Assembly (NCBI RefSeq): GCF_019195435.1 | Contig: NZ_CP078069.1 | Coordinates: 1,674,001-1,738,000 of the forward strand | From: Comamonas sp. NLF-1-9 | GTDB lineage: Bacteria > Pseudomonadota > Gammaproteobacteria > Burkholderiales > Burkholderiaceae_C | Direction: 5' to 3' | DNA length: 64,000 bases | In this document: positions 45,540-54,528 of the stretch, one piece after another | Layout: the number at the start of each line of letters is the position of its first letter | Position numbering within the stretch: position 1 is the first letter of the stretch | Translations under genes and position numbers: made by a program | Notes under the pieces: generated by a model | Database searches by the model: none | Seen by the model: the letters and a program-made list of their open reading frames with translations, nothing else | What the model was told of the DNA's origin: nothing

Positions 45540-45589
45540 GCTGCTGGCGCGCAAACTGTCTTGCGGCAGCCCAGGTCAGACAAGGGCAT
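45533..45589 (-). pseudogene. 5' remnant of a second tyrosine integrase
   Basis: Too short for ordinary gene finding. On the minus strand ATG 45589 starts MPLSDLGCRKTVCAPAAQ and stops. The intact integrase at 53028-54251 starts MPLSDITCRKAVCPPE, so 11 of the first 14 residues agree before similarity ends. The DNA upstream of this ATG (45590-45730) also matches the intact integrase's upstream region. A related element once sat here and nearly all of it has been lost. Confidence 0.8.
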
Positions 45590-45602
45590 GGGGCTGATTT
45601 GC

Positions 45603-45702
45603 GGGTATCTTTGCAACGAAGCTGTTACTGGCAAAAAGATACCCCAAAAAGTACCCCATTTGACCCCTGCCTTCATGTGCACGGCACTGCACGTCAGTGC
45701 AT
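45603..45702. promoter_or_regulatory. Second copy of the integrase upstream region
   Basis: GGGTATCTTT (45603) and AAAGATACCCC (about 45636) form the same inverted repeat seen before the intact integrase (54265-54306), followed by CTTCATGTGCACGGCACTGCACG. It probably represents the integrase promoter and arm-type binding sites of the lost element. Confidence 0.65.
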
Positions 45703-45736
45703 TAAAAAACCCCGTAAGTCTTTGATCTTGCGGGGT
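45703..45736. terminator. Bidirectional terminator, left copy
   Basis: ACCCCGTAAG (45709-45718) pairs with CTTGCGGGGT (45727-45736; one G-U pair) across 8 nt, with A-run on the left and T-run on the right. It is a copy of the tRNA-Ser(GCT) terminator at 54365. Confidence 0.75.
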
Positions 45737-45778
45737 CTTTTTGCACGGTAGTGCACGGTATTTCAGCTATCCCTGGCG
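45731..45778. repeat. Left attachment repeat (attL)
   Basis: 48 bp identical to 54393-54440, ending CTATCCCTGGCG. After it the left copy reads ACGAAGGGAT, matching the tRNA 3' part with three bases missing. It marks the left boundary of the integrated element. Confidence 0.85.
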
Positions 45779-46200
45779 ACGAAGGGATGCACAAGATGCC
45801 TTGAAACCCGCATAAATGCTGGATTTCTTGTTTTTTGATTCCAGGCATACCCGGAAATATACCCTCGGGCTCCCTGCATTCATGTGCACGACCGCAACCA
45901 AAAAGGTGGCCACCGCCTCATCCCGTTGACCGTCGGAATGCCCGCTGGTGGCCTTGCCTCGCTCGGGTAGCGCGCGGCGCGGGTTTGCTAGGCTGGCGTG
46001 TCTTTCCTGACTGCGCCAGCCCGTGTTTTTTGCAGCTCCCGCCGCGCAAACACTTGCTTGCTCCTAGCAGCCGTAAGGCGTCCCTTGGAGCGCGGCCAGC
46101 GAGCAAGACAAGAACTCTTCGGCCTGGGTGCACCGCCATGGTTCTATGCCCTCCCGGCTGGCTATGGCGCTGCTATCTCGCCAGCCGGGAATCTTTGAAA
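45779..46200. other. Non-coding left end of the element
   Basis: 422 bp without a supported gene. At 45847-45890 is a third, partial copy of the integrase arm sequence (ATACCCGGAAA, then CCCTGCATTCATGTGCACG), likely the second arm of the attachment site. A 10-bp perfect hairpin (46153-46162 with 46180-46189, CCCGGCTGGC/GCCAGCCGGG) lies just after the capsid stop. It lacks a T-run but may stop the late transcript. Confidence 0.6.
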
Positions 46201-47325
46201 TCAGCTCACGGTGGCGTCTTTGATGGCGCAGAAAGCATCCATGCGCCTGGGCGCGATGCCCACCTCCGCGCGGGCAATGACGCGCACCGCCCCATCCGTG
46301 GCCAGGGTCACGGCGTCGACCATCAAATCGACCGCCGCAGGCCCCCAAAAGCCGACGTAGAACTCGCTCAGGTCGCCAAACAGCAGCGCCGCGCAGTTGG
46401 TCGTAGAGCCCTTGGTCAGGTCCTCCGGCATCGCGCTCGAGATGGCCACGGGGTAGCCCAGAATATCGGCGCCCTCGAACAGCATGTAGGCGTCGTTCTT
46501 GGCGGTGGTGCGCAGCTTCTTCGCAAGCTTGGGGCTCACCAGCCAGCGCGGCGTTAGCAGGCCGCCAGCGGCGCCAGCTGCCACGGAAAATTCAACGTCT
46601 ACCAGGTCTTTGAATGTGATCGCGCCGCCGTTGGCGCCAAGGCTGTGCACCTTCAGGCCGGAGTGTCCCAATATCCCCTTGGGCTCCTTGACCCCGTCTC
46701 CCTTGAGAGCCGCCGAGTCGATCGCGGCGCCAAGGCGGTTTGCAATCTCCCGGCGCAGCAGTCCGTCCAAGTCTATCTCGGTATCTGCCAGCAAGCGGCG
46801 CGAGACGATCAGCTCCATGGTGATGGTTTTGGGGACAAGCGTTGCCAGCTCAAAAGCGGGCGTCGTGGTGGCCGCCGCCGAGTCCCCTTCCCCAACCCAC
46901 TCCGCGCCCCCGGTGACGCCGTTCAAGTAGGGCAGAGAAAGGCTTCCACGTTTCAGGCCGGAAATCACGGTGGCCCCGCCTCCGACTACTTCGGAGGTCG
47001 GCAGCAGGCTTACCTCGGCGTCGCCCGAAACCGTGTTTTCGACAAGCGCTGCTGTGTTGCTCGTCGAGAGATCGCGCGTCAGCGCCAGCAGGGGCACCCA
47101 CGTGCCCAGCGGGCTATCGCCACTGCGCCGGCGAAGTGCCGCGTTGACGTCGGCATAGGCTGCGACAACGCCCTGATCTACCGGGCGCGGCGGGTATTCC
47201 ATGCGGCTGCAAATCAGGTCAGCAAGGCTCAGTCTGCCGCGATTGCTGCGAACGAAAATTCCCTGTGCGCCGGCTTCCGCCTTGACCTCGCGCGTCAATT
47301 TTCCAAGGGTTGCGAAGTTGACCAT
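46201..47325 (-). CDS. HK97-type phage major capsid protein
   Basis: 374 residues. The core has the HK97-fold order: PTSEVVGGGATVISGLKRGSLSLPYLNG, then TLVPKTITMELIVSRRLL, LRREIANRLGAAIDSAALKGDG...PKGIL, then WLVSPKLAKKL and FGDLSEFYVGFWG, ending in the P-domain-like VRVIARAEVGI. A scaffold/delta region of up to about 90 residues lies N-terminal. No protease or portal gene accompanies it, unlike a normal head operon. ATG 47325 fits best, though its ribosome site is weak. It may remodel or substitute a helper's capsid (inference). Confidence 0.85.
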   Translation of the reverse strand: MVNFATLGKLTREVKAEAGAQGIFVRSNRGRLSLADLICSRMEYPPRPVDQGVVAAYADVNAALRRRSGDSPLGTWVPLLALTRDLSTSNTAALVENTVSGDAEVSLLPTSEVVGGGATVISGLKRGSLSLPYLNGVTGGAEWVGEGDSAAATTTPAFELATLVPKTITMELIVSRRLLADTEIDLDGLLRREIANRLGAAIDSAALKGDGVKEPKGILGHSGLKVHSLGANGGAITFKDLVDVEFSVAAGAAGGLLTPRWLVSPKLAKKLRTTAKNDAYMLFEGADILGYPVAISSAMPEDLTKGSTTNCAALLFGDLSEFYVGFWGPAAVDLMVDAVTLATDGAVRVIARAEVGIAPRRMDAFCAIKDATVS

Positions 47326-47386
47326 TGTTCTGTGCACTTGCTGACGATGGCTCAATCTTCGCGCGCGCGTCGCGAAGCGGATGCAG

Positions 47387-47830
47387 CTACTTGCTTCCGG
47401 CGAGCAACTGCCCGTAGCGCCGCCGGGTCTTTGGCAACCGGCCCGCCCCGGCTCGCGCCGCGTGCCACAGCATTTTCTGCAGCGCATCGGCATGCGCGGG
47501 CGGCTCCGACAAATCCCACCAGCACGGCCATTGCCGCGCCATGAAGCGCTGCACGGCTTGATGCAGGCGCCGCGCCCGCACCGCGCGATCAGCGAAGTTT
47601 GCGCCTACCAACTCACTGGCTTGCAGCAAGTACCAGTCCCGCACCTGGCGCTGCGCATGCTCTGGATTGGCGGGCAGGCCAAGGCATTGCGAGAGGCTGG
47701 GAAAGCGCTTTCGGCCGGTGCCAGCGCCGCACGTCGCGGAAGCATTTGACCAGGCCGTGAAGGCGCGCTGCAGGTGTGCCAGGGCCTCGGGGCTGGGGTC
47801 GCCAGCAAGCACGTCAATCAGCCACTGCAT
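47387..47830 (-). CDS. Hypothetical protein between capsid and terminase genes
   Basis: 147 residues, not recognised. It is tryptophan-rich (WYLLQASELVG; ARQWPCWWDL), basic at the C-terminus (RLPKTRRRYGQLL) and mainly helical. GGAGG lies 5 bases before the ATG, and the gene overlaps the end of the terminase gene by 17 bp, so it is a real co-translated gene. The position suggests a packaging or head-assembly role. Confidence 0.65.
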   Translation of the reverse strand: MQWLIDVLAGDPSPEALAHLQRAFTAWSNASATCGAGTGRKRFPSLSQCLGLPANPEHAQRQVRDWYLLQASELVGANFADRAVRARRLHQAVQRFMARQWPCWWDLSEPPAHADALQKMLWHAARAGAGRLPKTRRRYGQLLAGSK

Positions 47831-48290
47831 GATCGCCTCCGATCACAACCGGCGCCCTGGCCAGGTCGTACAGCGCCGCGTGTATCTCGTCATCGAGCGC
47901 CCGGCGCACCGCGTCTGCGTCGCTCTCTGCGGCCAGCTCCTGCGCCAGGCGTGCAGGCAGTTGCATCAGTCGGTCGCGTGTGGATGCCAGCAGCGACGCA
48001 AGGCCGGCGCGCACGACCTGCAGGCGGATCAGCTCGCCCTGATCCTCGGCAAGCCTCAGCTCCTCGCGGCTGGCCTGGGCAGCCAGCAAACGGGCGCGCT
48101 CGCTGGTGACCTCCGGCGTATCGGCACGACCTGCAGCCACGGCGCGCAAGTGCGCGGTGTAGCTGCTGACTTGATCGGCAACCGTGGTGCCGGCGATGAC
48201 GCCCTCGGAGATCAACTGGCTTACGCGGCCCTGGGTGACGCCGATCAGCTGGCCTAGCTCGGCTTGTGTGATGCTCACTGCAAAATCCAT
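47814..48290 (-). CDS. Small terminase subunit, Nu1-like
   Basis: 158 residues. The N-terminal winged helix (VSITQAELGQLIGVTQGRVSQLISEGVI) resembles phage lambda Nu1-type packaging recognition proteins. It is followed by a long charged helix (SERARLLAAQASREELRLAEDQGEL) and a C-terminal helix for oligomerisation or large-subunit contact. GGAG is 7 bases before the ATG. With no large subunit in the element, this protein would have to redirect a helper's packaging motor, a known satellite strategy. Confidence 0.8.
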   Translation of the reverse strand: MDFAVSITQAELGQLIGVTQGRVSQLISEGVIAGTTVADQVSSYTAHLRAVAAGRADTPEVTSERARLLAAQASREELRLAEDQGELIRLQVVRAGLASLLASTRDRLMQLPARLAQELAAESDADAVRRALDDEIHAALYDLARAPVVIGGDHAVAD

Positions 48291-48308
48291 AGCATTACTC
48301 CAACAAAT

Positions 48309-48791
48309 TTACTCACCCACTAGCGCGCAGCCGGGGTCGCGATTACCCGCAAGGCCACCCCCCCGGAAGGACCCGTCAGCCTGCGCGCGCTCGATCAGCG
48401 CGGCGCGCTCGGGCTCTGGCAGCTTGGCCAGCGCATCAAGCTCTACGCCCTTGTCAAGGCTGGTGCCGGCGATGCGGCGCAGGTCATCGCCAAGGGCATC
48501 GGCGCGGGCAAGGTGACGGTTGATGTCGCGCTTCGACTCGCCAGACACCGCCGCCGTGTCGGCAGCGAACGATTGCGTTTGCTGTGGCGACTTCTTCCGG
48601 CCCAGTGCGTCTGCTGGTTGATGGGTGGGACAAGTTGTCCCACCCATCTCTTCACCCGGATGCAACGCCTCCCAAATCTGCCTGCGCCGCTTGATGGCCT
48701 GCGCGCGCTGCCTTGCCGACCGTGCGGTCACGCGAGCGCGCAAGCGGAACCACCGGGAAAAACTGGAAAAACTGGAATAACACGGTTTCAT
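48309..48791 (-). CDS. ParB-like protein fragment, C-terminal half only
   Basis: 160 residues from ATG 48791. From about residue 18 (RARVTARSARQRAQAIKRRRQIWEALHPG) through SKRDINRHLARADALGDDLRRIAGTSLDKGVELDALAKLPEPERAALIERA it matches the C-terminal part of ParB/Spo0J-like proteins of mobile elements. The ParB nuclease/CTPase N-domain is missing. The first 16 residues (MKPCYSSFSSFSRWF) are translated out of the iteron block, so repeat growth may have truncated an older gene and created a new start. Its functionality is uncertain. Confidence 0.55.
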   Translation of the reverse strand: MKPCYSSFSSFSRWFRLRARVTARSARQRAQAIKRRRQIWEALHPGEEMGGTTCPTHQPADALGRKKSPQQTQSFAADTAAVSGESKRDINRHLARADALGDDLRRIAGTSLDKGVELDALAKLPEPERAALIERAQADGSFRGGGLAGNRDPGCALVGE

Positions 48792-48968
48792 GCGGGTTTG
48801 CGGGCACCCCCCCTTTGTGACGAACCGGGAAAAACCCATGCTCCGGCCGTCGTCCTGCTCGGTTTTTCCCGGTTTTTCCGGTTCGTCACAAACCCCCACC
48901 CCCTCGCAAAGCCGCGCCAGCTGGTGTTTTTCCAGTTTTTCCAGTTTTTCCAGTTTTTCCCGGTGGTT
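48748..48968. repeat. Iteron block with nested inverted repeats, candidate replication origin
   Basis: A perfect 29-bp inverted repeat joins 48748-48776 and 48940-48968. Inside it a perfect 15-bp inverted repeat joins 48814-48828 (TTTGTGACGAACCGG) and 48878-48892. Both arms are built from a 9-10 bp unit, TTTTTCCAG or TTTTTCCCG, with about six forward and four reverse copies. An AT-rich tract follows at 48985-49030. This sits directly after the replication ATPase gene, where P4-like and PICI-like satellites place their origin. Origin activity is inferred. Confidence 0.75.
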
Positions 48969-48984
48969 TGGCTTGTACGCTTGC

Positions 48985-49030
48985 AAGTTATTGAAAAGAA
49001 AGAACATTTCAAAATTACCTTATTGCAATC
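48985..49030. other. AT-rich tract beside the iterons
   Basis: Strikingly AT-rich (TTATTGAAAAGAAAG, then CATTTCAAAATTACC) in a high-GC element, between the iteron block and the DUF3987 stop. Compatible with a DNA-unwinding element. Confidence 0.5.
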
Positions 49031-49037
49031 TCTGGAA

Positions 49038-50591
49038 CTACTGGTGGAACAGGCGCGGGTTGATCAGCCAGACGGAGCTGGCGCGAGCACCTGGGTTCTT
49101 CTTTGTGGTGTGCCGGATGCAGCGGTTGGCCTGCAAGCGGCGCAGGGCCTCCTGCAGGCGCTCCAGCTTGGTGAACCGCCCGTGCAGTTCGCGGTGCGCG
49201 GCGGACTGCAGGAACTCGCCGCACGACTGGCGCAGCACCCACTGCAACAGATAGTCCGCGTCGCGGTCTGCCTGATCGGCTGCCAATAGCCGGAAGGCCA
49301 GCCGGGCATGGGGCACCAGCGCCAGGCACAGCCGCACCGCTTGCTGCATGGTGGTCTCGGAAACCTCCTGGGCATCGATGCCGCTGGTGACGAACTCGAA
49401 CAGTGCAGCCACACGCGCAGCCAGGCCGGCCAGCTTTGCGCCCCAATCGCTGATGGCGGCCAGCTCGGCGCCGGGCGCAAGTTCATCCTCGACCCACTGC
49501 GCAAACTGGAACCAGACCTCCAGCGCGCCAGGCGACAGGATGACGATGCCGGGCTTGGTGTGCGGGCCTTCGGTCGCCACGTCGGGCAGCAGGCCGGCCA
49601 GCCCGGCCTCGTAGGCCTGGCGCACGTCATCCGGCACGGCGCTGTACTTGCGCACGTTGCGCCCGCCCACGAACTGCCCCGGCAGCGCGAAGGCAAAACG
49701 CGCCATCAGGCCCGATGCACGAAAGCGCGTCGAACCGGCCGCTTCGTTGAGTAGATCGGGCTGCAGCAGCAAGCCCAGCGCGACGGCCGCACGATCCACA
49801 TAGGCAGCGCGCCCTGCGCGTGTGACGCGCACCGCGCCGCCGGAAAAGCCCTCGAGCAACACGTCCAACGACGGGCCGCCAGAACCGCCATAGGACGCGG
49901 TCAGGGTGCTGAACAGCCCGCCCTCGGCCGCGAGCACGGCAGCGCGCCCGCCCTGTTCGACCAGGACTTGCTGCAACGCCTCCACGGTCACGTCGCCGCT
50001 GAACGCCAGCGGCGCGAACAGCCGCTCCGGCATTTGTTCCTCTTCATGGGCGATCTCGCGGCGCAGCCGCTCGCGCTCTTCGCCGTCGTCGGTTTTGGCG
50101 ATCTTGGCTTGCAAGCCTTTGATGCGGGATTCGCAGGCCATGATGCGGGAATTCACGTCTGCGATCGGCCGGCGCATGCGCTCGCGCGCCTGGCGCTCCC
50201 AGTACTCCAACGGCTCCAGCAGCGAACGTAGAACGGCACTCTTGCGAGCGCCGCTCGGCGCAGCCGTCAAGCTCCAAAACGACAAGCTTTCGATGTAGCC
50301 GCCGTGCACGCGCACCATGCGCCGGCGCTGCACCGCCGTGGCCACCACCGACAGAGCCGTCAGGGCGGACATCGTCACGGGCGTTTGCGTTGCCGCGGCA
50401 AGCGCAGCCACGAACTGCCCCAGCCAGCCGGGCAGCAGATCGGCAGTCAGTTCGGGCGCTGAGGTCGCCCCCATCGTCGGCTGCGGCCAGGCATCAAGTT
50501 CTTGCTGCGCGATCGATTGCGCTATCTGACTGCGCACGGCCTCCAAGCCTTCGGCCTGCGCCAAGTCGTTGAAATCGCTCGCGTCACCCAT
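49038..50591 (-). CDS. DUF3987 (YfjI-like) replication ATPase
   Basis: 517 residues. Walker A is APSGARKS at 111-118 (LTAAPSGARKSAVLRSLLEPLEYWE), typical of DUF3987. A long charged coiled coil follows (about 140-185), then an ATPase core (AEGGLFSTLTASYGG; PDLLNEAAGSTRFRASGLMARFAFALP) and a winged-helix-like C-terminus. It starts MGDASDFNDLAQAEGLEAVR, a motif normally found at the end of a Toprim domain in one fused protein. ATG 50591 overlaps the Toprim stop by 8 bp. Probable helicase/loader for element replication. Confidence 0.85.
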   Translation of the reverse strand: MGDASDFNDLAQAEGLEAVRSQIAQSIAQQELDAWPQPTMGATSAPELTADLLPGWLGQFVAALAAATQTPVTMSALTALSVVATAVQRRRMVRVHGGYIESLSFWSLTAAPSGARKSAVLRSLLEPLEYWERQARERMRRPIADVNSRIMACESRIKGLQAKIAKTDDGEERERLRREIAHEEEQMPERLFAPLAFSGDVTVEALQQVLVEQGGRAAVLAAEGGLFSTLTASYGGSGGPSLDVLLEGFSGGAVRVTRAGRAAYVDRAAVALGLLLQPDLLNEAAGSTRFRASGLMARFAFALPGQFVGGRNVRKYSAVPDDVRQAYEAGLAGLLPDVATEGPHTKPGIVILSPGALEVWFQFAQWVEDELAPGAELAAISDWGAKLAGLAARVAALFEFVTSGIDAQEVSETTMQQAVRLCLALVPHARLAFRLLAADQADRDADYLLQWVLRQSCGEFLQSAAHRELHGRFTKLERLQEALRRLQANRCIRHTTKKNPGARASSVWLINPRLFHQ

Positions 50592-51462
50592 GGCGCACCC
50601 CGCCAAAATTCGGGTACACCACACGCCCGCCCACGGCGCGAGCGGCTGCGGTTGCGCGCGTGAGGCCGGGATTGCCGGGCGTGGCGGCATCGTCATCGGC
50701 GCAGACCACCGCGCGCACGCTCGGGAATTTTTCCCGCAGCGCGCAGGCCACGGGCTCCAAGTTGTTGGCATTGAAGGCCACGGCCACCGGCCAGCCGGTG
50801 GCCTCGTGCAAAGTCGCGCCGGTGGCAAAACCCTCGGCGATCAGCAACGTGTCCACTGGCGCGCCGCCGATCGGGAAATAGCAACCGCGCGTGCGCCCGC
50901 CGGCAAGAAAGCGTTTTTCGCCATCCGGCGAAATGAGTTGCAGGCTCCACAATTTGCCGGCCGTATCGCGCAGCGGCAGTACCAGGTCACCGCGCAGCAT
51001 GCGTGCCCCATGGGGTTTGATCCCTTTTTTCAGCAGGTACGGGTGCGCGGCCAGGGCGAGCGCCGAGCGCCCCAGCAGCACGCGCGCGCGCTCGGCGGCG
51101 TCTGCCTGATCGCGCTCAGATGCGCGCTCACGTGCGGCCTGGGCGGCGCGCAGACGCTCGCGCATGGCGGCGTACTCGGCGGGGCTGCATGGCGTGGCGC
51201 GCCTGGGTGACCATGTGTGCGTGCTGCCAAATTTCCAAGACCCGAAGACGGCGGCCAGCGGGGCGTCGTGGAGAACCAGCCAGCCGTTGCGACTGCCGGG
51301 CTTGTCGCCCACCACGCGAAAGCGCCGCAGGCGGCCATCGGGCACCAGGTCGAGTGCCGCAAACGGCTCGACGCCACGCACGCGCATGGCGGCGCGCAGC
51401 TCCTGCAAGGCGGCGTCGAAGTTGACCGGCTGCGCGCCGGCGGGCATAATTTGATTGGTCAA
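50584..51462 (-). CDS. Toprim-domain primase-like protein
   Basis: 292 residues. An N-terminal module (about 50-100, RFRVVGDKPGSRNGWLVLH) and a charged helix precede the Toprim domain: GKLWSLQLISPDGEKRFLAGGRTRGCYFPIG, catalytic E210 in LLIAEGFATG and D256/D258 in CADDDA. TTG 51462 was chosen because GGGAG lies 7 bases before it; ATG 51447 has no ribosome site. It acts with the DUF3987 protein; the pair is often a single polypeptide in other elements. Confidence 0.83.
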   Translation of the reverse strand: MTNQIMPAGAQPVNFDAALQELRAAMRVRGVEPFAALDLVPDGRLRRFRVVGDKPGSRNGWLVLHDAPLAAVFGSWKFGSTHTWSPRRATPCSPAEYAAMRERLRAAQAARERASERDQADAAERARVLLGRSALALAAHPYLLKKGIKPHGARMLRGDLVLPLRDTAGKLWSLQLISPDGEKRFLAGGRTRGCYFPIGGAPVDTLLIAEGFATGATLHEATGWPVAVAFNANNLEPVACALREKFPSVRAVVCADDDAATPGNPGLTRATAAARAVGGRVVYPNFGGVRHG

Positions 51463-51516
51463 TTTTCAACTCCCGGCCGCTGGCGCACTGCGAATGCCCA
51501 GCGGCTTTTTGGTTGG

Positions 51517-51720
51517 CTACTCGGCGGCTGCGAGTTGCCGCGCGATCCAACGATCGATGGCCTCGCTGTCCCAGCGCGTGCACCGCGCGGACAAGCGAAC
51601 AGGCTGCGGGAACTCGCCGCGTTGAACCGCGTACCAGACCCAGCGGTCAGATCGCTCAATCCGCTGTGCGACGCTGCGAACGCTTTCCAGCCGGCGCGGC
51701 GCCTGATTGGTCGATTCCAT
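51517..51720 (-). CDS. AlpA-family regulator
   Basis: 67-residue winged-helix regulator. RLESVRSVAQRIERSDRWVWYAVQRGEFPQPVRLSARCTRWDSEAIDRWI is the AlpA/excisionase-like pattern. ATG 51720 follows GGAGG. AlpA proteins activate excision and replication of P4-like and PICI elements, so this is the probable master switch. A 140-bp spacer with a GTTGC...GCAAC hairpin precedes it. Confidence 0.9.
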   Translation of the reverse strand: MESTNQAPRRLESVRSVAQRIERSDRWVWYAVQRGEFPQPVRLSARCTRWDSEAIDRWIARQLAAAE

Positions 51721-51860
51721 GTGCTTTTCCTCCAAGGGTTGCGTTGCGTGCATCGGCGTGCAACGGCGCCAAGGATTGCGCGCAGGAGTCCAGTCGGTAA
51801 GGCAAAGCGCTGGACAAGCGTTGCGCGCTGCCGTCAATCAGGCTTGACGCCCGGCGCGAA

Positions 51861-52106
51861 CTACGGCAGCTCCCCGCCCGCTTCCAACGCCTCGGCGCAG
51901 CGCACCAGCAGCGCTGCCACGGCGCGCGCCAGGTCGGGCGCAAGACGAACCATGCAGCTGCCGTCATTTGTGCCCACGCTCAGGTCAACGGCGCGCCAGG
52001 TGCGGCTGGCGGCTACGTTCACATAGCGGCCGCTGGCATCGTCAACATGCTCGAAATCCAGCAGCCGATCTGGGCTCAGCCATTCGGCGTGAGTGAACTT
52101 GACCAT
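51861..52106 (-). CDS. Hypothetical small protein
   Basis: 81 residues (MVKFTHAEWLSPDRLLDFEHVDDASGRYVNV...), not recognised. The ATG was chosen because GGGGAGG lies 7 bases upstream; the gene starts 2 bp after the previous stop. Alpha/beta mixture with a C-terminal helix. Early-gene position. Confidence 0.7.
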   Translation of the reverse strand: MVKFTHAEWLSPDRLLDFEHVDDASGRYVNVAASRTWRAVDLSVGTNDGSCMVRLAPDLARAVAALLVRCAEALEAGGELP

Positions 52107-52108
52107 GA

Positions 52109-52450
52109 TCAATCCTCCCCGCCGCCGGCTTCAAGCTTGCCCTCGAGATCGGCCCTGTCGAGCACGTCGATAGCCTCGAGCGCCAGGGCGTGCACGGCGT
52201 CCGCAAGACCGCTCAGCATGCGCGCTGAAATCCGCAGTCGGTTGTCATCGCCGCAGGCCAGCAAGACCGCTGAAATCGCCTCTATGCCGCGTAGACGCTG
52301 CGCCAGGCGGCGCGCATCGAACGCCCCCAGCCTGACCCCGGCGCTGAAATCGCCGAAGGCCTGCGCCATGTAAATTTCGTGTAGATCGAGCGGTTCAAAG
52401 CCGGCTGCCTCCGGCTCATTGGCGGGCGCTTGGGTTTGGCGCTTGGTCAT
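52109..52450 (-). CDS. Hypothetical helical protein
   Basis: 113 residues, not recognised. It is almost entirely helical after a short disordered start (LHEIYMAQAFGDFSAGVRLGAFDARRLAQRLRGIEAISAVLLACGDDNRLRISARMLSGLADAVH). The start overlaps the upstream stop as ATGA. Part of the tight early operon of the element. Confidence 0.7.
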   Translation of the reverse strand: MTKRQTQAPANEPEAAGFEPLDLHEIYMAQAFGDFSAGVRLGAFDARRLAQRLRGIEAISAVLLACGDDNRLRISARMLSGLADAVHALALEAIDVLDRADLEGKLEAGGGED

Positions 52451-52680
52451 GCTGCACCTCCTTCTGCACCGGCGCGATCGAGACGGCGCAGCGCAGCCAG
52501 CGCCAGGCCGGTTTTGCGCCGGGCGCCTGCCAGATTGCCGCCGGGCTGGCGCAGGTAGTGCAAGGCCACGCTCAGCGCGTTGTGCGCGTCGCCAAAGGCT
52601 TGCAGGGTGTCGGTAGAGGCGCCCGTATCGGGCAGGGAAGGCGCGCCGCTGCGGCTGCGCATGGGGATTACCACGGACAT
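52447..52680 (-). CDS. Hypothetical small helical protein
   Basis: 77 residues (MSVVIPMRSRSGAPSLPDTG...LQAFGDAHNALSVALHYLRQ...TGLALAALRRLDRAG), not recognised. First gene of the early operon, downstream of the 347-bp control region. It resembles the next gene in being helical and alanine-rich, with no visible catalytic motif. Confidence 0.65.
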   Translation of the reverse strand: MSVVIPMRSRSGAPSLPDTGASTDTLQAFGDAHNALSVALHYLRQPGGNLAGARRKTGLALAALRRLDRAGAEGGAA

Positions 52681-53027
52681 GGTTTCATGCTCCTTATCGA
52701 GACCTTGAACCCACCTGCCGCGTTTTCAAGCGCAGCAGGTGGACGGGATGTTGAAAACACGGCGATAAGACCATGCGCCGGGCGTTGCCGATCCGGCCAT
52801 CCCGCCCGAAACCGTGGCCACGGGCGCCGCCCGCAAGCCGTAATCCAGACGTGACGAAACCTCGCTGTCGGGGAGGTTGCGCCGCTTATCGAAGGGGTGT
52901 TTTCAAGCACCAGCCCATCAAAGGGCCGGGGTCAATTATGCACGCCAGCGCGCCGGCGTCAACGCGGCAAGCGCTTGCGGGCGCAGTGCAAAGGTGCAAG
53001 CTTGCACGATTGCCGGTGCGCCCGCCA
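52681..53027. promoter_or_regulatory. Control/leader region with repeated CTTATCG...GTTTTCAA motifs
   Basis: 347 bp without a convincing gene. CTTATCG-N5-GTGTTTTCAA occurs at 52885-52906; its inverse (TTGAAAACAC at 52751-52760 and CGATAAG at 52763-52769) lies 115 bp away; a looser copy (CTTATCG...GTTTTCAA) is at 52692-52730. The two best copies could pair into a long hairpin or serve as operators for the early operon. The ORF across it (52668-52910) has the typical look of the translated P4-type leader and may be fortuitous. Confidence 0.6.
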
Positions 53028-54251
53028 TCAGCCCGTGCGCGAGTGCAGCTCGATGACCTGGGCGCCTCGGCGCGCCTGATCAAGGTAGTCTGCCCACCAG
53101 GACATCATCTTGCGCCGCTCGGCCAGGTGTTGGCTGTGGTCGTAGGCGGCTGCGATCTTGTCGCGCTTTTGGTGCGCAAGCTGCGACTCGATCACGCGAT
53201 CGGCAAAACCATGCTCATGCAAGATGGTGGAAGCCAGCCCACGGAAGCCGTGCCCGGTCATCGTGCCCTTGTAGCCCAGCCGCGCCAGGGCCGCAAGGAT
53301 GGTGTTGTTGCTCATGGGCTTTTCGTGGTCACGCTCGCCAGGAAACAACAGCGAGCGGCCATTGCTCAGCGTCTGCAGCGCCTGCAGCAGCTCTATCGTT
53401 TGCGGCGCCAGCGGTACCAGGTGCGGGGTCTTCATCTTCATTCGCTCGCCCGGGATGCGCCACAGGCCTGCCGCAAGATCGAACTCTTCCCAGCGCGCGC
53501 CGATCAGCTCGCTGGTGCGAACAAAGGTCAGGTTCATCAACCTCATGGCAAAGCGGGTGTAGGGGCCGCCTTGGTAGGCCTCGATCTTGCGCAGCAGATC
53601 GGGCAGCTCGGCAGCATCGATGCGCGCGAAGTTGACCGGCTTCTTTGGCCGAAGGATGTCACCAGGGCGGAAATCCGTCGCAGGGCTGCGCTCGATCAGA
53701 TCCTCGGTGACGGCAAAGCGCAGCACCGCACTGGCGATCTGCAGCGTGCGATACGCCAGGTCAGAGACGCCGCGCGCCTCCACGCCTTGCGCCATGGTCT
53801 TGAGGTGCTTTGCCGTGATCGAGCGCACCGGCATCTTGCCCAGCCTGGGGAAGATGTCTTTCTCCATGCGCCCCATCGTGTAGGCGGCGTGGCGCTCGTT
53901 CTTGCCCTGGCGCCAGCGCTGCCACCACAGCCGGGCCACGTGCTCAAAGGTGTTTGCGCTGTCGGCCGCCTGTTGCTCGCGCGCGGCGCGCCGCTGCGCG
54001 GACGGGTCTTTGCCCATTGCCAGCTGCTCGCGCGCCTGCAGGTGCAAGGCCCGGGCGTTGGCCAGGCTCACCACGGGGTAGGAGCCAAGACTGATCATTT
54101 TTTCCTTGCCCGCGAAGTAGTAGCGGAAGCGCCATAGCTTCGCGCCGGATGGCGTGACGTCAAGGCACAGTCCGCCTTGATCGGCCAGGCGGTGCAGGGC
54201 TTTTTCCGGCGGGCAAACCGCCTTGCGACAGGTGATGTCAGACAGGGGCAT
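53028..54251 (-). CDS. Tyrosine integrase, P4 family
   Basis: 407 residues. A DUF4102-type N-terminal arm-binding domain (GGLCLDVTPSGAKLWRFRYYFAGKEKMISLGSYP), a core-binding domain, then the catalytic domain with R (VRTSELIGARW), H-x2-R (HGFRGLAST), H (LAHQKRD) and the nucleophile Tyr (AAYDHSQH). The start MPLSDITCRK at 54251 was chosen over upstream codons, which are shadow. It sits next to its target tRNA-Ser(GCT), as is usual for this family. Confidence 0.96.
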   Translation of the reverse strand: MPLSDITCRKAVCPPEKALHRLADQGGLCLDVTPSGAKLWRFRYYFAGKEKMISLGSYPVVSLANARALHLQAREQLAMGKDPSAQRRAAREQQAADSANTFEHVARLWWQRWRQGKNERHAAYTMGRMEKDIFPRLGKMPVRSITAKHLKTMAQGVEARGVSDLAYRTLQIASAVLRFAVTEDLIERSPATDFRPGDILRPKKPVNFARIDAAELPDLLRKIEAYQGGPYTRFAMRLMNLTFVRTSELIGARWEEFDLAAGLWRIPGERMKMKTPHLVPLAPQTIELLQALQTLSNGRSLLFPGERDHEKPMSNNTILAALARLGYKGTMTGHGFRGLASTILHEHGFADRVIESQLAHQKRDKIAAAYDHSQHLAERRKMMSWWADYLDQARRGAQVIELHSRTG

Positions 54252-54264
54252 GACGCTATTTTGC

Positions 54265-54306
54265 GGGTATCTTTGTAACAAAATCGTTACAGGGAAAAAG
54301 ATACCC
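54265..54306. promoter_or_regulatory. Nested inverted repeats upstream of the integrase
   Basis: GGGTATCTTT (54265-54274) pairs with AAAGATACCC (54297-54306). Inside it TGTAAC (54274-54279) pairs with GTTACA (54286-54291). It lies 14 bp before the integrase ATG. Likely operator and/or arm-type recombinase sites; the same pattern occurs at 45603. Confidence 0.65.
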
Positions 54307-54364
54307 GGAAAACTACCCGTTTTTGACCCTGCATTCATGTGCACGGTACTGCACGGCAGTGCAT

Positions 54365-54398
54365 TAAAAAACCCCGTAAGTTGTTGATCTTACGGGGT
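54365..54398 (-). terminator. Terminator downstream of tRNA-Ser(GCT)
   Basis: Perfect 10-bp stem ACCCCGTAAG (54371-54380) with CTTACGGGGT (54389-54398), an 8-nt loop, then six Ts on the minus strand. A T-run on the other side makes it potentially bidirectional. Confidence 0.85.
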
Positions 54399-54440
54399 CT
54401 TTTTGCACGGTAGTGCACGGTATTTCAGCTATCCCTGGCG
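54393..54440. repeat. Right attachment repeat (attR)
   Basis: 48 bp identical to 45731-45778. It covers one arm of the tRNA terminator and reaches into the encoded CCA and the last acceptor base of tRNA-Ser(GCT), so integration keeps the tRNA whole. Confidence 0.85.
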
Positions 54441-54528
54441 GAGACGAAGGGATTCGAACCCTTGATGAGGCTCAACACCCCATACTCCCTTAGCAGGGGA
54501 GCACCTTCGGCCACTCGGTCACGTCTCC
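54436..54528 (-). tRNA. tRNA-Ser (GCT)
   Basis: 93 nt on the minus strand. Acceptor GGAGACG (from 54528) pairs with CGTCTCC; the anticodon loop is CTGCTAA with anticodon GCT. It has a long class II variable arm, T-loop GGTTCGAATCC and encoded GCCA at 54436-54439. Integration target of the element. Confidence 0.96.

Follow-up and report, generated by a model that had tools for sequence, protein, structure and literature searches.

A probable compact phage satellite with small terminase and capsid genes in Comamonas sp. NLF-1-9

Element limits and gene content

The window, a stretch of 64,000 nucleotides from Comamonas sp. NLF-1-9 (contig NZ_CP078069.1, positions 1,674,001 to 1,738,000), belongs to a single-contig genome of 3.03 Mb. 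It harbors a compact integrated element at the tRNA-Ser(gct) gene, the integration target, which was called with ARAGORN (54436..54528, minus strand) and is left intact. Exact direct repeats of 48 bp are located on the tRNA side (54393..54440) and at the far end (45731..45778), with a repeat-to-repeat spacing of 8,662 bp. At the tRNA end, another 11 bp (54443-54453) match likewise. An initial annotation, made from the sequence alone, had placed the limits at 45779..54392, exactly the DNA between the two repeats. The main genes are all encoded on the minus strand in the order int - AlpA - Toprim/DUF3987 - origin-like block - TerS (small terminase subunit) - u147 - capsid. The proposal that they form a satellite, neither a phage nor a product of random decay, is well supported by ten elements with defined ends, by empty integration sites and by the lack of other virion genes. 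In a comparison of the flanks in nine genomes of the genus, own genome included, the tRNA side matched in 9/9 and the other flank in 8/9. Three congeners (G720, G778, G1152) have an empty site, with the flanks 71-278 bp apart.

The integrase, AlpA, replication pair, origin-like block, Nu1-like TerS and HK97-type capsid gene first annotated were all recovered with Pfam and PHROG scans. Genes for the large terminase subunit (TerL), portal, protease, tail or lysis had been described as missing, and none was found. All coding-strand open reading frames (ORFs) above 300 amino acids (aa) within the element are assigned. They comprise only the integrase, the DUF3987 protein and the capsid protein, and thus leave no room for TerL or a portal. 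P4-like sid and psu genes gave no match in the Pfam/PHROG scans of the main ORFs, in which no model aimed at sid or psu was run.

The major capsid protein with HK97 fold (46201..47325, minus strand, 374 aa) matches PF05065 (1.1e-38) and TIGR01554 (2.6e-40). Translation most likely begins with the ATG at 47325; the query of the capsid searches started one codon upstream. An AlphaFold model with a predicted local distance difference test score (pLDDT) of 81 comprises helices at residues 7-68 and 79-83, disorder at 85-103 and the HK97 fold beyond, i.e. a short helical N-terminal domain and no protease domain. The top structural matches of the model in the PDB were RcGTA, R4C and EcCI2, a capsid-forming phage-inducible chromosomal island (cf-PICI). 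A profile search of the PDB yielded R4C (2.2e-22) and RcGTA (6.5e-14). In a capsid tree of 45 rows, one branch (100/100) splits 26 satellite-type capsids from 15 phage or fusion capsids, with four rows in neither group. Metagenome proteins make up most of the 26; they were grouped by sequence and length and not by a seen gene context. Among 50,697 phage records, 182 matched the capsid, every one with less than 60% identity. Seven of the 182 were fetched; in each, the capsid is encoded by a single long ORF (1.9-2.5 kb), and two of these were named protease or peptidase. Since all seven are long ORFs, the short, protease-less satellite capsid differs from them. The capsid clade appears to be new, as far as could be found.

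TerS, a Nu1-like protein of 158 aa (47814..48290, minus strand), matches phrog_57 (4.2e-26); its match to the Pfam Nu1 family is weak (0.044). A helical protein of 147 aa, u147, is encoded between TerS and capsid (47387..47830, minus strand). It was missing from the initial annotation and is conserved in this position. Scans of the profile libraries revealed no family above the cut-off, and the 50,697 phage records held no match at E 0.01. The AlphaFold model (pLDDT 84) gave no significant match in a fold search. The protein u147 seems to be undescribed and new, as far as found. Homologues of about 163 aa form a conserved chromosomal family (L047:9183-9779, L068:9459-9992; L numbers denote loci, G numbers genomes). 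They adjoin LuxR/GGDEF or LysR genes, and no phage gene was seen close by. The motif 'VPxR.PE..RLPGE' marks an ORF of about 70 aa that is present near TerS in L031-L037, L040, L051 and L079 (L037:9392-9616) and absent from the window.

The early module starts with a tyrosine integrase (438-aa ORF, 53028..54344, minus strand; PF00589 3.1e-22, PF13356 9e-24). The AlpA-like regulator or excisionase (51517..51837, minus strand) matches phrog_66 (excisionase, 2.4e-7) and PF05930 with 20.6 bits, just under the Pfam cut-off of 21 bits. Replication is represented by a Toprim primase part (50584..51462, minus strand; PF13362 3.2e-9, phrog_2249 4.8e-70) and a DUF3987 helicase part (49038..50828, minus strand; DUF3987 8.7e-86). 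The DUF3987 homology starts near an ATG at about 50591, overlapping the Toprim stop. The two ORFs overlap at 50584-50828; in phrog_2249, this region belongs to a single fused protein. The overlap recurs in L071, L073 and L079; L036 has a 676-aa ORF instead. The origin-like block (48732..48984) is located just 3' of the replication gene. Its 50-nt arms are 88% complementary, and both arms carry 9-nt iterons in inverted orientation. Compared with shuffled sequences, its folding reached a z of -10.4 (0/200 shuffles as good). Inverted repeats were present at the equivalent place in 10/10 other loci examined, a count without a chance control. Repeat copies of families D4 and D6 from the int end (54301-54345) occur near the far end (45847..45890) and are candidate arm-binding sites of the integrase. 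Three small minus-strand ORFs between int and AlpA had been missed in the initial annotation. The first (52447..52680, 77 aa) is conserved, with 64% identity over 69 aa to L073, and matched no family; the others encode 113 aa (52109..52450) and 83 aa (51861..52112).

Related elements

The capsid protein search yielded 67 proteins including the own one, from 7,995 candidates sharing most words. The first 48 (P0001-P0048) have 351-439 aa, most of them 370-388, and all except the window's own are 37-54% identical to the window capsid. From P0051 on (n = 17), a protease domain is present in eight. A capsid scan of one genome per species revealed eight loci, one of them doubtful (L038, 26%), and IMG/VR contributed three. 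The order int-alpA-Toprim-DUF3987-TerS-capsid had been suggested as a search target in the initial annotation. The order TerS - u147 - capsid is kept in L031 (Ramlibacter), L032 (Tepidicella), L033 and L034 (both Tepidimonas), L035 and L040. The TerS match of L031 is weak (phrog_57 0.0036). L036 carries u147 - capsid with no TerS recognised, and L037 is without u147.

Profiles of u147 matched in 5/399 genomes of the order sample, 11/399 of the family sample and 6/369 of the class sample. These samples overlap; together, the searches identified 20 different genomes, own genome included. One match is doubtful (G433), two are isolated chromosomal genes (G438, G774) and one lies beside TerL (G980, L074). 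Among the remaining 16, the capsid gene is adjacent in 13; the contig of L079 ends at u147. A stop codon interrupts two of the u147 matches (G245, G213).

Ten elements, including that of the window, have exact repeats of 18-58 bp at both ends and span 8.7-14.0 kb: the window (8,662 bp), L031 (9,433 bp), L032 (8,735 bp), L049 (9,081 bp), L048/L052 (14,044 bp), L070 (9,492 bp), L075 (13,094 bp), L076 (10,280 bp), L077 (9,706 bp) and L078 (9,487 bp). They differ in integrases and sites. The repeats are located at called tRNA genes in eight of the ten; no tRNA was called for L049 and L078. L037 (15-bp repeat) and L073 (14 bp) were left out of this count, and the repeat search found no bounding repeat for L069 and L071. 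The gene u147 is present in 10/10, a capsid gene in 9/10 and a recognisable TerS in 7/10. Seven of the ten have no unassigned coding-strand ORF above 300 aa. The unassigned ORFs of the others encode 334 aa (L048, DUF1376-like in the first 122 residues), 342 aa (L049, matching TPR proteins) and 520 aa (L077, in replication position, matching phage proteins without a named function). The initial annotation had named a deletion from a full prophage as the alternative; the relatives proved to be repeat-bounded elements of 8.7-14 kb, and the window element is thus not regarded as a deletion product.

Selection, transfer and helper candidates

Between L035 and L036, the ratio of nonsynonymous to synonymous substitution rates (dN/dS) is 0.11 for the capsid (130.5 synonymous, 62.5 nonsynonymous) and 0.20 for u147. 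Both genes are under purifying selection in this pair. The Tepidicella and Tepidimonas copies are near-identical, with changes too few to judge selection; their dN/dS values are 1.07 for the post-capsid ORF (4 changes), 0.21 for u147 (8) and 0.10 for TerS (14). L034 from Tepidimonas aquatica and L032 from Tepidicella have 98.9% DNA identity in a stretch of 3,221 bp that reaches the same tRNA-Asn repeat in both, and their capsid genes are identical in 378 codons. This identity fits a recent transfer between the genera.

PF03354 matched in 1/12 carrier genomes; when the own genome was counted as well, the numbers were 5/13 for PF03237 and 4/13 for PF05136. No match to these three TerL/portal families was located on an element-bearing contig. 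Three of four fetched prophage stretches from G106 and G234 hold a TerS with 36-37% identity to that of L032, together with L075-like protease and capsid genes and a PF05136 portal. These prophages are candidates for helpers, no more. Matches of 30 and 125 bp in Tepidimonas thermarum, considered as cos/pac, were read as insertion-sequence ends.

Comparison with known satellites

The phage-inducible chromosomal island (PICI) EcCICFT073 comprises int, an AlpA-type regulator and a primase with one-way transcription, and an iteron origin directly 3' of the primase (PMC6092414). The window element has the same one-way order int - alpA - pri/rep, all on the minus strand, and a block matching an iteron origin in structure and in position immediately 3' of the replication gene. 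A lone capsid gene is shared as well. The length of EcCICFT073, counted from int to the final small gene ahead of phoQ, is about 10.7 kb. It differs by a decoration protein and cos packaging (PMC6092414); TerS, u147 and a different capsid are present in the window element. By blastp, the capsid of EcCICFT073 matched no capsid of the reference set. A terS gene occurs in some Gram-negative PICIs (PMC6092414), as in the window element.

Ccm of SaPIbov5, a capsid homologue of 355 aa that is mature from residue 88, redirects helper assembly (PMC8569155). Common features are the capsid homology, a short N-terminal delta domain and a satellite without an identified protease in the source (PMC8569155); for the window capsid, the delta-type domain and the lack of an own protease are seen in the predicted structure only. 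SaPIbov5 is staphylococcal and of cos type, and Ccm showed no sequence match in the PDB profile search. By analogy, Ccm may be the best functional counterpart of the window capsid gene.

A capsid and TerS are also shared with the cf-PICIs, which according to the sources encode protease, portal, connectors, TerL and HNH (PMC10690885, PMC11389934); the window element has none of these. The phage-inducible chromosomal minimalist islands (PICMIs) share int, AlpA and a DUF3987 primase (PMC10803314), the window element thus holding their early set of int, AlpA and a DUF3987 or DUF5906 primase. PICMIs are located next to fis in Vibrionaceae and, as far as the source describes, typically lack capsid-remodelling genes (PMC10803314), whereas the window element occupies tRNA-Ser and has a capsid gene. 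AH14b from Pseudomonas sp. ANT_H14 has AlpA, a 293-aa Toprim primase, a separate helicase-like gene and no terminase (PMC4936722). It differs in its size of 16.8 kb, the lack of own structural genes and the use of helper capsids of unchanged size (PMC4936722). Because the plan is that of EcCICFT073, Ccm provides a capsid precedent and the early module resembles that of PICMIs, the element is placed by its layout as a putative PICI-like satellite of Gram-negative type, with TerS added in comparison to EcCICFT073.

Proposed helper dependence and alternative explanations

The element is probably an intact integrated satellite of the Gram-negative PICI type that depends on a helper phage. The helper would induce AlpA, and Int and AlpA would excise the element. 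The Toprim/DUF3987 proteins would replicate it from the iteron origin. The Nu1-like TerS would pair with the helper TerL and select satellite DNA, redirecting packaging. The capsid protein would build or alter particles by assembling with the helper portal, the helper protease and possibly the helper capsid protein into a shell suited to 8.7 kb, comparable to Ccm. Helper tails and lysis would complete the particle. The weakest step concerns u147, probably an accessory of assembly or packaging that acts at the same stage.

Several observations weigh against this proposal. Deletion of the lone capsid gene of EcCICFT073 changed neither transfer nor interference (PMC6092414); a lone capsid gene therefore need not matter. 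Ccm was not among the nine PDB matches of the capsid profile. TerS is unrecognised in the bounded elements L070, L075 and L078, and L076 is without a capsid gene. On L074, a contig of 5.5 kb that is not one of the ten, u147 lies next to TerL and capsid pieces encoded on the opposite strand. L075 encodes a 523-aa protease with a partial match to a phage portal profile (phrog_21 3.5e-22). The capsid dN/dS between L032 and L033 is 0.77, a value from 3 changes only. The own genome gave no match to PF05876, PF04860, PF03354, PF03237 and PF05136 (TerL/portal families), and for this reason the helper is probably external. A helper prophage with matching cos/pac sites, anticipated in the initial annotation, was not identified in the genomes compared; by nucleotide, the Tepidicella satellite and two of the candidate prophage stretches shared weak matches only.

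Among the other explanations, a complete shell built by the satellite capsid alone is possible and somewhat unlikely. As in cf-PICIs, it would replace the helper shell, with portal, protease, TerL and tails borrowed. A full-length HK97 protein in its own clade and EcCI2 among the structural matches agree with this, while cf-PICIs have their own portal, protease and connector (PMC10690885), all lacking here. The capsids of the G106/G234 prophages match the L075 (phrog_29) type and not that of the satellite, with the exception of one 30-residue match (E 0.001); a foreign shell would therefore need to accept the portal of these prophages. It is unlikely that capsid and TerS are weapons that poison helper assembly and packaging and protect the host, the DNA traveling as concatemers in helper-sized capsids. 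PICMIs, whose early set the element holds, are packaged as concatemers (PMC10803314), and the dispensable EcCICFT073 capsid gene is in line with such a role. Yet the capsid has its full length, one pair shows purifying selection on it, and a sibling carries another full capsid family, which a mere poison would not need.

It is very improbable that the element is what is left of a prophage after decay, with TerL, portal, protease and tail genes gone. The truncated integrase remnant just outside the element and the gene neighborhood of L074 would suit such a history. Opposed to it are ten similar bounded elements with differing integrases and sites, the purifying selection, the spread between genera, and the phage records, in which u147 has no counterpart and capsid identities stay below 60%. 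If helper-dependent satellites are the correct interpretation, the lone capsid gene would be a strategy that satellites of Burkholderiales and of further orders in this class use repeatedly, and no longer a peculiarity of a small number of islands in staphylococci and E. coli. The gene u147 would be a searchable marker for elements that satellite methods based on known gene sets could miss.

Variation of the late genes

The late cargo is varied: it includes three or more capsid families, one of which falls into two clades, as well as fusions of protease and capsid, tape measures and a lambda-J-like fibre. Phrog_617-like capsids form the window's 375-aa clade and occur separately in L049, which groups among phage capsids in the tree. 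Capsids of phrog_4523/133 are present in L048, L070, L071, L073 and L077, by blastp also in L072 and L078; in L070, L073 and L077, a ClpP-type protease part accompanies the capsid. L075 combines a phrog_29 capsid with a protease and a tape measure, and L078 has a tape-measure protein too. L051 and L041 (IMG/VR, unbounded) carry the window-type capsid, partial in L041, plus a tape-measure protein. A 429-aa phrog_8572 protein with a weak tape-measure match (4.5e-4) is encoded beside u147 in L069.

Compared with the window, L073 shows identities of 61% for the integrase, 64% for the small ORF, 49% for AlpA, 58% for Toprim and 42% for DUF3987. Its capsid is fused to a protease and, within the reference set, had matches to the L048 type only. 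L073 would be the clearest capsid swap, with the backbone kept and the capsid family changed. Capsid swapping between siblings and relatives with a tape-measure or tail-fibre gene appear to be new, as far as found. A more general view, rather doubtful at present, is that a widespread class of satellites replaces single helper virion parts instead of remodelling the virion, and consists of an early module plus u147 with interchangeable late cargo. If true, a satellite lineage could acquire another particle size, tail length or receptor through one gene swap, and u147 would be an adaptor joining foreign parts to helper particles. Natural pairs with the same backbone and different capsids offer material for studies on capsid compatibility with helper portal and protease.

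In L051 (1975-7437), a satellite-like contig, an 1820-aa tape-measure protein is encoded between u147 and capsid, an arrangement that would imply satellite control of tail length. L076 (5302-7824) contains a lambda-J-like tail fibre within a 10.3-kb bounded element with int, a helicase-like gene, u147 and TerS. This satellite may carry its own receptor-binding protein.

Integration site and neighboring sequences

The tRNA-Ser site is otherwise occupied in two congeners. In G270, it holds an island of 27.7 kb whose integrase is distant, and in G095 a 6.8-kb element, one gene of which is presumably Zot-like. For G196, G1151 and G1153, either the two flanks belong to separate contigs or one flank is absent. 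No tailed prophage was seen at the site among the eight congeners, a small set with three lacking a readable site. Outside the element, a second integrase is represented by its 5' end only, truncated and accompanied by att-side DNA, at 45546-45778, with 85% similarity to the int end of the element. It was read as a probable remnant of a neighboring (tandem or earlier) element. An integrase scar resembling that of the window is also present in G778 (L111), where the site is otherwise empty.

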